Assembly (NCBI GenBank): GCA_024707405.1
Contig: JANPZU010000003.1
Location: 1 to 64,000 of the forward strand
Direction of reading: 5' to 3'
DNA from: Luteimonas sp.
GTDB taxonomy: Bacteria > Pseudomonadota > Gammaproteobacteria > Xanthomonadales > Xanthomonadaceae
Length of the DNA stretch: 64,000 nt
This document shows, piece after piece, positions 315 to 52,771 of this stretch (its first letter is position 1; the number at the start of each line of letters is the position of its first letter). A program made the translations under genes and the position numbers. Under the pieces are notes generated by a model. It did no database searches. It saw only the letters and a list, made by a program, of their open reading frames with translations, and was not told the DNA's origin.

Positions 315-390
315 GGGCCGTTAGCTCAGTTGGTAGAGCAGTTGACTCTTAATCAATAGGTCCAAGGTTCGAATCCTTGACGGCCCACCA
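315..390 (+). tRNA. tRNA-Lys (CTT anticodon)
   Basis: Canonical cloverleaf beginning GGGCCGTTAGCTCAG, with anticodon loop CTCTTAA (CTT, reading AAG), T arm AAGGTTCGAATCCTT and encoded CCA at 388-390. The 3' 16 nt and the following terminator are repeated perfectly 176 bp downstream. Confidence 0.97.
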
Positions 391-434
391 GTTCCACGAA
401 AAACCCGGCCTTGCGCCGGGTTTTTCGTTCCTGC
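375..434 (+). repeat. 60-bp direct repeat, copy 1 (tRNA-Lys 3' end + terminator)
   Basis: These 60 bases are identical to 551-610. The unit starts inside the tRNA T arm (CCTTGACGGCCCACCA), includes the CCA end and the whole terminator, and stops 7 bp after it. Copy-to-copy distance is 176 bp. Confidence 0.97.
397..427 (+). terminator. rho-independent terminator of tRNA-Lys
   Basis: A 13-bp stem (397-409 with 415-427) carries a GC-rich core and a run of five T in the 3' arm, 6 bp after the tRNA. An identical copy lies at 573-603. Confidence 0.85.
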
Positions 435-550
435 ATTTCACACAAGGATTCGAACCTGCGGTTCGCCCGCTGTGCGGGCCCGGCCACGCGCAGCACGCGT
501 GGCGCTCGTGCGGACGCGAACCTTTCGGTTCACATACCGTCCGCCCTCGC
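435..550. repeat. hairpin-rich insert between the two tRNA-Lys 3' ends
   Basis: This 116-bp stretch is built of consecutive palindromes: 451-465 (CGAACC/GGTTCG), 465-479 (GCCCGC/GCGGGC), 483-503 (8-bp stem, loop CAGCA) and 518-531 (GAACC/GGTTC). It opens with 443-457, an exact inverted copy of the tRNA-Lys T-arm segment 365-379. No convincing coding frame is present. Confidence 0.8.
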
Positions 551-610
551 CCTTGACGGCCCACCAGTTCCACGAAAAACCCGGCCTTGCGCCGGGTTTT
601 TCGTTCCTGC
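551..610 (+). repeat. 60-bp direct repeat, copy 2 (displaced tRNA-Lys 3' end)
   Basis: Perfect copy of 375-434. It carries only the last 16 nt of the tRNA (ending CCA) and the terminator, so it is not a functional tRNA. From 611 to the tRNA-Leu at 762 the DNA is unique and holds only a possible TAATAT -10 box at 735-740. Confidence 0.95.
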
Positions 611-49191: not shown

Positions 49192-50343
49192 TCACTTGGT
49201 GCGGATCGGCCAGTAAACCTCGAACTCGCCGTCGGCGGTGAACGCAGCATCGATGCCGTTGCTGTAGTACTCGAACGGACGGCCGGCCACTTCGTGCCCT
49301 TGTACCATGGTCCATGCACGCAGCGCGTTGCGGACGTTGTCGAGTTCGGCCATGTAGCCGGTGTACAGCGCGCGGGTCGCGCGGCCAGGCTCGGCACGCA
49401 CGTACTCGACCGGTGCGCCGGTCGGGATGGTCACTTCAAGCTCGCCGTCATCCACCGCCAGTTCGATCGCGGGGGTGGCCGGCGCCTGTTCGCCTTCAGC
49501 CGCATCGGCAGCCGGCGCGGACGAACCGACGCGCTTCTTGCGCACGGGCTGGACGACGTCGAAGGTGTAAGTCTCGCGGCCGAGTTCGGTGGACACGATG
49601 CGCATCGGGCCGGCGGGCTCGAGGTTGTTCGCATCCATCGTGCGCTTGATCCACTCGGTGTTGGCCGTCATCGACTCCTTGATCTTCTGGTTGTTGCGGT
49701 CGATGGCACCCGCGAACACCACCAGCAGGTTCTCGGCCGGACGATCGACGACCGCCATGTCGCGCATCTTGCTGCCTTCGACGCGATAGTCGACGTTCGG
49801 AATCTGCGCAAGCATGTTGGACAGGCGGCGCATGCCGAGCTTCATGTCCTCGCCCACGCTGCTGCGCACGTACAGGCCCGCGTAGCGGCCAAGCAGATCC
49901 CAGTCGTAATGCACCTGGTAGCGTTGCGTGACCTCGATGTTGCGGCCGCTGCGGCCGGCGGTCTTGAGGTTGAAGTCGACGCGCTTGCCGCTGCCGCGGT
50001 TACCGTCGTCGATGCTGTAGGCCACGCTGTTGCCCGGCTCGCTCTCGATGATTTCCCAGCTGCCCTTGCCGACCGACCTGACCGACGAGTCGAAGTCCAG
50101 GCGCGCACCGACGCCCTCGGCCGGGCCCGAACGCTCGAGCTTGACCTGTGCATCGTGCAGCGGGAGCGCGTTCCAGTCCTTGAACCGGTTGAAGCTGTTG
50201 AGCGTGTCGAACACGATCGTGCGGTTGCGGCTGGTTTCGAACTGCTCGGTCAGGGTACGGCTCGACGGCAGGAAGACACCCACCAGGACAAACAGCACGG
50301 CGACGATCGCCATGGAAATCAGGATCTCGTACAAACGGGTCAT
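49192..50343 (-). CDS. SRPBCC (polyketide cyclase-type) protein with GyrI-like C-terminus
   Basis: 383 residues. N-terminal helix (LYEILISMAIVAVLFVLVGVFLP), then an SRPBCC/START-fold domain (about 30-190, SRNRTIVFDTLNSFNRFKDWNALPLHDAQVKLERSG), a middle region, and a C-terminal segment resembling GyrI-like effector domains (AGRPFEYYSNGIDAAFTADGEFEVYWPI). Residues about 273-300 are an acidic/Ala-rich linker. Ligand unknown. Good ribosome site (GGAG) before ATG 50343. Monocistronic. Confidence 0.85.
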   Translation of the reverse strand: MTRLYEILISMAIVAVLFVLVGVFLPSSRTLTEQFETSRNRTIVFDTLNSFNRFKDWNALPLHDAQVKLERSGPAEGVGARLDFDSSVRSVGKGSWEIIESEPGNSVAYSIDDGNRGSGKRVDFNLKTAGRSGRNIEVTQRYQVHYDWDLLGRYAGLYVRSSVGEDMKLGMRRLSNMLAQIPNVDYRVEGSKMRDMAVVDRPAENLLVVFAGAIDRNNQKIKESMTANTEWIKRTMDANNLEPAGPMRIVSTELGRETYTFDVVQPVRKKRVGSSAPAADAAEGEQAPATPAIELAVDDGELEVTIPTGAPVEYVRAEPGRATRALYTGYMAELDNVRNALRAWTMVQGHEVAGRPFEYYSNGIDAAFTADGEFEVYWPIRTK

Positions 50344-50493
50344 TCAGGATTCTCCAGGAACCAATCCGGCCGGCATCAGGCGCAGACCGGCAATGCTAGC
50401 AATTTGCGTCGGGTCGGGCGAGCCATCCCCTCCCGACCTGCAAAGACGGGGTGGCGGGCCATCCTGCCCGGGGCTGCGTGGATATCCTGTCGA

Positions 50494-50562
50494 TCAAACC
50501 AATTGCAGTTCGAACGCCTTCAGCACGGCCCGGGGCGATCCCGAACACCGAGCTTGGACAGG
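50494..50562 (-). repeat. displaced third copy (C) of the response regulator 3' end
   Basis: 69 bp equivalent to the last 23 codons of the gene at 50868. Relative to the functional end, 13 codons differ and all differences are synonymous. One base is deleted in codon 10 of the block. It ends in TGA and encodes the same AVLKAFELQLV terminus. Confidence 0.92.
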
Positions 50563-50713
50563 GTGAGCCGTCATGGCCTGCGAGGCATGCCTCGCATGGC
50601 TGCGAACGCCCGCCGCGCTGCGGCGGGCAGGGTAAGGAGCCGTGGCTTGTGCGGCATGCCGCACGCGGCGACGAACGGCCGGTGCGCTGCACCGGCCCGG
50701 AACATCCTGCCGG
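50563..50713. repeat. hairpin array between copies B and C
   Basis: Four perfect palindromes in 150 bp: 50579-50596 (TGCGAGGC/GCCTCGCA), 50608-50628 (8-bp stem, loop CGCTG), 50649-50664 (GTGCGGC/GCCGCAC) and 50678-50696 (GCCGGTG/CACCGGC, loop CGCTG). No coding function seen. Confidence 0.85.
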
Positions 50714-50783
50714 TCAGACCAGTTGCAGCTCGAAGGCCTTGAGGACCGCACGGGTTCGGTCGCGCACGCCGAGCTTGGACAGG
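50671..50783 (-). repeat. 113-bp tandem unit, copy B
   Basis: Matches 50825-50937 at 111 of 113 positions, 154 bp away. It contains the hairpin 50678-50696 and a full copy (50714-50783) of the response regulator's last 23 codons with one synonymous change (CGT for CGA). Confidence 0.95.
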
Positions 50784-50867
50784 GTGAGGCGGCGCCGACC
50801 ACGAGGCACTGCCTCGTGGCGCCGACGAACGGCCGGTGTGCTGCACCGGCCCGGAACATCCTGCCGG
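50784..50867. repeat. hairpin pair between copies A and B
   Basis: Two palindromes: 50799-50819 (CCACGAGGC/GCCTCGTGG, loop ACT) and 50832-50850 (GCCGGTG/CACCGGC, loop TGCTG). The second belongs to the repeated unit whose other copy has loop CGCTG. They sit directly after the functional stop codon and could also terminate transcription. Confidence 0.85.
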
Positions 50868-51509
50868 TCAGACCAGTTGCAGCTCGAAGGCCTTGAGGAC
50901 CGCTCGGGTTCGGTCGCGCACGCCGAGCTTGGACAGGATGTTGGACACGTGGTTCTTGATCGTGCCTTCGGCCACGCCGAGCGAATTGGCGATTTCCTTG
51001 TTGGAAAAACCGCCGGCCATGAGCCGCAGGATCTCGGTTTCCCGGTCGGTCAGCGGATCCGGGCGGTCGAGGCTGACGAACTCGTTGCGCATGTGCTCCA
51101 GCCCCGAGAGCAGGCGCTGGGTCACGGCCGGCTGCACCAGCGAGCCGCCGCCGGCCACTGCGCGGATGGCCCCGACCAGCTGCTCCAGCGAGACGTCCTT
51201 GAGCAGGTAGCCCTTGGCGCCGGCCTTCATGCCCGCCAGCACCAGTTGGTCGTCGTCGAAGGTGGTCAGGATGATCGTCGGCGGCAACGTCCCGGCCTTG
51301 GACAGGGCCTGCAACGCCTCGAGGCCGGACATGACCGGCATGCGCATGTCCATCAACACGACATCGGGCCGGATCTGGGGCACCAGCTCGACGGCCTGCT
51401 TGCCGTCGGCGGCTTCGGCGACGACCTCCATCTCGCCATCGAGGGCCAGCAGCGACTTGATGCCCTGGCGAACCAGGGTCTGGTCGTCGACCAGGCAGAT
51501 ACGAATCAT
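50868..51509 (-). CDS. NarL/LuxR-family response regulator
   Basis: 213 residues. Receiver with DD (8-9), phospho-acceptor D54 (VLMDMRMPVMSG), LTTFDDD and K in GYLLKDV. C-terminal LuxR HTH: DPLTDRETEILRLMAGGFSNKEIANSLGVAEGTIKNHVSNILSKLGVRDRTRAV. Pairs with the kinase gene upstream (start overlaps its stop, ATGG/TGA junction at 51506-51509). The liaR/desR-like group often senses envelope or membrane state, so targets are unknown. Its last 70 bases are repeated twice downstream. Confidence 0.94.
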   Translation of the reverse strand: MIRICLVDDQTLVRQGIKSLLALDGEMEVVAEAADGKQAVELVPQIRPDVVLMDMRMPVMSGLEALQALSKAGTLPPTIILTTFDDDQLVLAGMKAGAKGYLLKDVSLEQLVGAIRAVAGGGSLVQPAVTQRLLSGLEHMRNEFVSLDRPDPLTDRETEILRLMAGGFSNKEIANSLGVAEGTIKNHVSNILSKLGVRDRTRAVLKAFELQLV

Positions 51510-52771
51510 GGTGCCTCCACGGCGGTGTCTGGTTGGGTGGCGGCCTGCCGCGGCCGCGGTTCTTGTCCTTGCGGCGCAACCACGGCGGCACGGGCCAAGG
51601 CCTCGGCGCCCTCTTCCAGAGGCAACCGCAGCCGAACCGCGAAGCCGTTGCCGGGGGACGTTTCGACCTGCAAGGTGCCGCCATAGGCGACCAGCCGTTC
51701 GCGCATGCCCAGCAACCCGTTGCCGGCGGTGGCCATCTCGGCGCCCTTGCCGTCGTCGAAGGCTTCCAGCGTGACCACGCCCGCCTCGTTCCTGTAACGC
51801 AGGCGCAGGGTTTCGGCCGCGGCATGGCGCACGGCATTGGTGATGATTTCCTGCGTGCAGCGCAACAGGACATGGGCGCGTTCGGGATCGTTGAGCAGGA
51901 ACGACCTCGGCATCTCCATCTCGATCCGCAGGCCCGGCACGTTGTCGGCCAGCGGCAACAGGGTGGCGCGCATGTCGATGGCATCGTCGTCGCGCAGACG
52001 GCTGACGGCCTCGCGCACGTCGCTCAGCAGCAACTTGGCCAGCGTGTGGGCCTGGGTCACGTGCTCCTTGGCCTGCCCGCGCACGAGGTGGTTGGCCACC
52101 TCGAGATTCAGGCTGAGCGCGGTCAGGTGGTGGCCCAGCAGGTCGTGCAGTTCACGGGAGATGCGGGTGCGCTCGTTCACGCGCACGCTTTCGGCCAGCA
52201 ACGCGCGGGTGGCGCGCAATTCCGCGTTCAGCCGGCGCTGTTCGTCCCGTGCCTGCGCCTGCTGGCGCGCCACCAGTCCGGTGACGTAGGCAAACCCCGT
52301 GAAACCGACGAACAACGCGGCCTGCAATGCCGCTTCACCCCAGGTGAACCCGAGCCCGCGCACGAAGACCGGGATGATCGCGAACTCGCACAGCACCAGC
52401 AGCGCGATGCCCGGCTTGAGCGGCAGCAGCCAGGGCAGGACGCAGGCCACCACCATCAGCAGCACGCTGCCCAGCCCGCTCTGGCTGTAGTAGCTGATCG
52501 CGATGGCGCTGCCCGCCAGCAGCACCAGCATCGGGTAGTCGAACAGCGTGATCCGGCGCTGGCCGAGGCCTCGCGTCAGCCACGCGTAACACAATCCGAA
52601 CGTTCCCCACGAAATCCACGTGCGCCAGCCCTCCAGCGTCGCCAGCGACACCCCCTGCGACAGCGGGTCGGCCGGCACCAGCGACAGGAACAGCAGCGGC
52701 AGCCCGGTCACACCCCAGGTGAACAGGCCTGCGTAGCGCAGCAGGCGGTTGTGGTCGAAGCGCGCGAGCAT
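51506..52771 (-). CDS. NarX/DesK-type sensor histidine kinase
   Basis: 421 residues. Five or six N-terminal hydrophobic helices (about 10-165) with no large loop, so an intramembrane sensor of the DesK type. Then HisKA_3 dimerisation helix with H209 (RTRISRELHDLLGHHLTAL) and HATPase_c (HVLLRCTQEIITNAVRHA, GNGLLGMRERLVAYGG). The C-terminal tail is rich in Pro/Gln. The stop overlaps the start of the response regulator gene. The type suggests sensing of membrane fluidity or envelope stress. Confidence 0.93.
   Translation of the reverse strand: MLARFDHNRLLRYAGLFTWGVTGLPLLFLSLVPADPLSQGVSLATLEGWRTWISWGTFGLCYAWLTRGLGQRRITLFDYPMLVLLAGSAIAISYYSQSGLGSVLLMVVACVLPWLLPLKPGIALLVLCEFAIIPVFVRGLGFTWGEAALQAALFVGFTGFAYVTGLVARQQAQARDEQRRLNAELRATRALLAESVRVNERTRISRELHDLLGHHLTALSLNLEVANHLVRGQAKEHVTQAHTLAKLLLSDVREAVSRLRDDDAIDMRATLLPLADNVPGLRIEMEMPRSFLLNDPERAHVLLRCTQEIITNAVRHAAAETLRLRYRNEAGVVTLEAFDDGKGAEMATAGNGLLGMRERLVAYGGTLQVETSPGNGFAVRLRLPLEEGAEALARAAVVAPQGQEPRPRQAATQPDTAVEAP

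Follow-up and report, generated by a model that had tools for sequence, protein, structure and literature searches.

Integrative elements use the 3' ends of tRNA and protein genes, leave the end repaired and produce direct repeats of the gene end. REP sequences and BIMEs are dispersed short hairpins beside gene ends; duplication of host gene ends is not known to be among the traits of REPs. Integron attC sites are marked by the core boxes GTTRRRY and RYYYAAC. In Escherichia coli, the 178-bp repeats of the tyrT/tyrV (rttR/tpr) region form tandem units. Each of them opens with a copy of the 3' end of the tRNA before it, joined exactly at the TCC of the T-arm (GAA-TCC). At the one locus examined (L401), the rttR/tpr repeats lie at positions 1367-1537.

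Here, we describe repeated gene ends in Luteimonas and related genera that are accompanied by a double-hairpin element, E. The E. coli tyrT/tyrV repeats are the nearest known parallel: their units start at the same T-arm position as in the tRNA cases reported below, such as tRNA-Lys, whereas the E model R1 does not match the E. coli spacer (L401) up to an E-value of 5. Like integrative elements, the units of gene end plus E target the 3' end, leave it repaired and form direct repeats of it. Unlike integrative elements with a tyrosine integrase, their spacers of about 85-150 bp hold copies of E and no integrase, and one type of element occurs at many ends. E resembles REPs and BIMEs in being a short hairpin element dispersed beside gene ends, but has no GTAG/CGTC tag; its consensus feet are CCGG, GTTCG and CTCACCC, of which GTTCG and CTC[AG] were fixed by the pattern used for collection. 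This GTTCG, fixed as it is, does not fit the attC box GTTRRRY. In the literature listings covered, with subscription papers largely outside, nothing was found on a hairpin element that duplicates the ends of genes.

The window, i.e., the whole stretch of 64,000 nucleotides of Luteimonas sp. that was analysed, carries on its minus strand a LuxR-type response regulator (RR) gene with the end sequence LSKLGVRDRTRAVLKAFELQLV. The preliminary description had stated that the last codons of this gene recur twice downstream (copies B and C, see Table 1). It had further stated that the farthest copy differs in 13 codons with no amino acid changed and with one base deleted. Coordinates and alignment bear out the first statement, and the count behind the second was reproduced: relative to the working end A, copy C shows 13 synonymous and 0 nonsynonymous codons and lacks one base. 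Between A and B there is a single difference in 66 coding nucleotides, which is synonymous. Depending on the weight given to transitions, 0 nonsynonymous changes among 13 random ones are expected with P = 1.5e-7 to 7.6e-7, which supports the view that copy C diverged under selection as coding sequence. A 154-bp direct repeat contains A and B, with 97% identity over 122 nt. Copies B and C share the flank CTCACCCTGTCC, which has only CCTGTCC in common with the RR gene; it had been taken to define a junction, and a defined junction is indeed present. An Rfam search of positions 50380-51600 gave six matches, none above the gathering threshold.

Table 1. Features at the two repeated gene ends of the window.
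Feature	Position	Strand	Evidence
RR gene (receiver + LuxR/GerE domain)	50868..51509	-	Pfam PF00072, PF00196
Copy A, working end: last 22 codons + stop of RR gene	50868-50936	-	Coordinates
Element E1, separating A from B, double hairpin with CTCACCC at its right end	50782..50854	-	CM R1, 73.4 bits
Copy B of RR gene end, one synonymous difference from A	50714..50782	-	Sequence comparison
Element E2, with E3 directly after	50630..50700	-	CM R1, 68.7 bits
Element E3, to whose right end (CTCACCC) copy C is joined	50561..50631	-	CM R1, 77.4 bits
Copy C, probably a displaced RR end, one base short, with 13:0 synonymous to nonsynonymous codons relative to A	50494..50561	-	
Sensor histidine kinase, upstream of RR gene (context)	51506..52771	-	PF07730, PF02518
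Gene downstream of RR array, family unassigned (context)	49192..50343	-	No Pfam match at E-value 0.001
tRNA-Lys(CTT), second case in window	315..390	+	ARAGORN
tRNA-Lys 3' end + terminator-like hairpin	375..434	+	100% repeat at 551-610
Element E4, between two tRNA-Lys end copies	480..552	+	CM R1, 47.6 bits, E-value 1.4e-6
Second tRNA-Lys 3' end copy, joined to E4 right end (CTCG-CCC)	551..610	+	Sequence comparison

Two observations were absent from the preliminary description. The spacers between the RR ends are three copies of the double-hairpin element E, which is about 70 bp long, and a second case of a repeated end lies at tRNA-Lys near position 500. A 56-sequence alignment gives the E consensus of about 70 nt as CCGGCCCGGCGCAGCGCGCCGGGC-GTTCG-stem-hairpin-stem-CTCACCC. 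In the gene-end cases presented here, E stands just 3' of the gene and in the same orientation. Out of 19 consensus pairs, 12 keep their pairing through double changes. In the second hairpin, the outer stem, which itself was not subject to any filter, covaries: its sequence is variable, but it keeps its self-complementarity. With 149 of 189 distinct elements usable, 121 distinct arms were compared; 50% of them are 6/6 complementary to the other arm of their own element, a value that drops to 2.3% when arms of different elements are paired. GTTCG, CTC[AG] and parts of the inner hairpin had been set by the pattern used for collection, and A1 admitted only first-hairpin stems of 7 or longer; conservation in these parts is therefore little proof.

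E is dispersed in Luteimonas and related genera (Lysobacteraceae). A loose pattern matches 2-45 times in each of 52 Luteimonas genomes, versus 0-7 times for a reversed control pattern. With a stricter pattern, 5-23 matches (control 0-1) are found in eight Luteimonas genomes and 1-29 (control 0) in eight genomes of other genera. The element also forms tandem arrays of its own with units of 71, 77 and 101 bp, in several cases with the joint CTCA-TCCGG. One E array with a 101-bp period (L193, G025:C8) has one copy inverted.

The end of tRNA-Lys is repeated across E4 over 60 nt with 100% identity. At a CM E-value of 0.01, the genome of the window (G000) has three E loci, and a repeated end is present at two of them but missing from the remaining one, which lies between two permease genes. 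The preliminary description had proposed to look in this genome for other genes with repeated 3' ends, and tRNA-Lys is such a case. It had also proposed to look for loci with one end only; some of the relatives treated below are of this kind.

The triple RR end is one case of an E-linked repetition of gene ends and not a private accident. Repeated 3' ends beside E were also found at acnA, glnA, ftsZ, the genes of an FNR-like reductase (FAD/NAD domains) and an M23/NlpD-like peptidase, tRNA-Lys and tRNA-Arg. For acnA, the pattern extends over many genera: an ungapped extra copy is present in 23 of 31 loci, 30 of which are the best search matches (one of these showing no gene). The 36 acnA copies, ungapped ones only, sum up to 79 synonymous and 69 nonsynonymous changes. 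In a wider count, 381 loci provided 243 elements, four of which were dropped because of too little upstream sequence. The sequence to the right of E is repeated upstream in 69 of the 239 testable elements. For swapped pairs, among which the same genes from other species also occur, the control value is 31 of 714. An element-only flag set 15 of these 69 matches aside. Among the 54 that are listed, 43 lie at identified gene or tRNA ends; the remaining 11 concern other palindromic repeats or unidentified sequence, and not all of them follow WTCC. The flag (CGTTC or CGCTC near the start) is crude and also removes glnA, whose cases stem from an earlier count. In this stricter count, the right-hand neighbour is repeated upstream for 29 of 150 CTC[AG]-ended elements, nine of which carry the element-only flag; for random positions the figure is 45 of 1025. 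Before counting, 59 elements that lack a CTC[AG] end had been dropped here, and 55 in another scan. Starting from reading frames, 21 of 44 ORF ends with E within 160 nt are repeated, versus 87 of 1784 other ORF ends, the latter including RR and acnA arrays whose E is absent from the list. The loci behind these counts had been collected through matches to E, RR or acnA, and the species are not independent.

At each identified gene, i.e., at eight gene kinds with nine sites, the start of the copy corresponds to a WTCC of the gene, in place of which CTCA-CCC or CTCG-CCC stands in the copy. The junction scans required CTC[AG], and the constancy of this end of E is partly given by construction; the variants CTTG, CTTA and TTCA were read directly in acnA and RR arrays. 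For CC dinucleotides 60-135 nt upstream, the WTCC/CC fractions of the eight genes multiply to 10^-4.7. The WTCC site used in ftsZ depends on the species, L150 and L554 having one and L211 another, hence at least these are separate events, and events recur. The WTCC junction lies 74-131 nt upstream of the central GTTCG of E at identified ends; one element of L303, which was called twice, also gives 62. A strict 100-nt ruler from junction to E was considered and dropped in view of this range.

These junctions bear on the explanation by ordinary slippage, where strong hairpins stall replication and a CC microhomology of two bases leads to tandem duplication with no special machinery, E being merely a terminator-like hairpin. 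The hairpins themselves, the short microhomology and the tandem arrays of E with their three periods are what slippage would give. It would, however, be expected to use other or longer microhomologies at times, whereas all nine identified sites join the right end of E to WTCC, an argument limited by the CTC[AG] requirement. Moreover, gaps of 74-131 nt with matches of two or three bases are, as far as is known, unusual. We consider slippage unlikely.

Further RR ends (a BLAST match beyond the gene itself) occur in 15 of 52 Luteimonas genomes, two being cut by contig ends; one locus (L009) holds five extra RR ends in 152-bp steps. Such arrays recur at the orthologous gene in other genera, and the extra ends begin at the same codon in Lysobacter, Thermomonas, Pseudoxanthomonas and Vulcaniibacterium loci. 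Here, E terminates in CTCA (L103, L093) or in CTTG (L092, L105). Two Xanthomonas loci (L045, L046) carry an E remnant in one case and a fused gene-end remnant in the other. Altogether, at least one ungapped extra RR end is present in 26 of 113 distinct RR loci, which are the best search matches and two others and not a random sample. Apart from these arrays, a larger C-terminal piece of the RR gene is doubled in L065 (MAG RYN_609), and no E was seen between the copies. A Lysobacteraceae-type RR locus was also met in a sequence titled Bacillus subtilis (L053, JAHREJ010000043.1), probably by contamination or mislabelling.

The reading we prefer, with a probability of roughly 0.55, is a tandem duplication of gene 3' end, spacer and E as one unit, joined at the right end of E and followed by turnover of the array. 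The right end of E (CTCA then CCC, or a close variant) is joined repeatedly, and in unrelated genes, to a WTCC inside the gene. This would duplicate the gene 3' end together with E and leave the gene intact, because the copy beside the gene body either stays its end or takes over this role. The event may be driven by the folded single strand of E, either by a switch of strands or by an enzyme that nicks at A-YCC. By recombination, the array would then grow and shrink, and many copies would therefore stay like their own gene. Among 40 extra RR copies, 23 have their own gene closer than that of any other species, five tie and 12 are not closer. The duplication predicts spacer or broken E after the outermost copy, and this fits L271, L273, L299 and L303, where spacer and an incomplete or decayed E come after that copy, as well as L383, where the spacer does.

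A second step is needed, since duplication alone does not suffice for displaced ends with synonymous changes only. From time to time, the gene-proximal part would be replaced by a diverged allele, presumably through recombination with a relative, and the former end would be stranded outside with synonymous-only differences, as copy C. Outer ends of this kind (copy C of the window; L022 from Lysobacter with 18 synonymous to 0 nonsynonymous changes) would therefore be recent working ends, the present gene end being derived from a diverged allele. For a few loci, these sequence patterns support such a replacement of the end in use, and copy C may well have been displaced by allele exchange. No near-identical donor end for A or C was found among the 113 RR loci (best 0.939 for A, 0.877 for C), so the exchange is not traceable there. 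The suggestion of a displaced former working end is supported for copy C by its 13:0 pattern and is not supported as a general rule, given the 23 copies nearest to their own gene and several outermost copies with many nonsynonymous changes, namely L015 (4 synonymous to 11 nonsynonymous), L010 (6:8) and L274 (6:13). The 40 ungapped RR copies, window copy C excluded, sum up to 124 synonymous and 48 nonsynonymous changes.

The preliminary description saw a resemblance to an integration that supplies a replacement end. In this explanation, a mobile unit of gene end plus E enters from a relative at WTCC and displaces the old end. The junction is there. The spacers of about 85 and 150 bp hold E copies, and the inserted or amplified unit consists of gene end plus E, with E shared by unrelated genes. 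Displaced ends with only, or nearly only, synonymous changes (window C, L022, and L156 with 12:2) would follow from such an integration, and conserved 3' ends are also the targets of integrative elements. In addition, the last copy is followed by a different sequence, with neither spacer nor E, in L074, L103 and L105; this, as well as the E. coli case, is what an insertion would give and counts against duplication. Conversely, most RR copies are closest to their own gene or tie, several outer copies decay, and what the units at different genes have in common is E and not the gene end. The spacers hold no integrase, and the 154-bp unit has no match among plasmids and phages at an E-value of 1e-5. 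Integration with a replacement end thus seems improbable to us, about as much as slippage.

A partner enzyme for E was searched for and none was found. If E were of the REP type and a Y1 (RAYT) transposase moved it, with the gene-end copies resulting from one-ended transposition, this would make sense of a foldable repeat near gene ends whose right end is fixed and whose left end varies. E has no GTAG/CGTC tags, however, and PF01797 is found in 8 of 12 genomes but not in the window genome G000 or in the E-rich G011, G024 and G025; no E pattern occurs at 18 Y1 loci. On these grounds the Y1 transposase was rejected as the partner of E, and the whole explanation is very improbable. A bolder version of the duplication, which we regard as doubtful, is that E is a structure-guided element: a dedicated enzyme acting on the folded strand would copy the 3' end of the preceding gene from WTCC on, and E would multiply harmlessly in essential genes and provide genes with spare ends for exchange. 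In that case, the tyrT repeats of E. coli would be an independent or distant instance of this process.

With these data, a single odd locus becomes a pattern over several genes, including the core genes ftsZ, glnA and acnA as well as tRNAs, with one junction motif, and the mechanism is thereby testable. The E pattern may bear on the long-known E. coli tyrT repeats. If ends are exchangeable, this would be a route for bacterial genes to swap their C-termini, and also a source of false gene-end matches in annotation.

E was also met in other surroundings. In L146 and L148, it sits within another palindromic repeat (GCAAGCGGGG-type), which suggests that one repeat family was inserted in another. 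In L143, L145 and L149, E faces a convergent gene, and its reversed right end, GGGTGAG, appears to give that gene's TGA stop.
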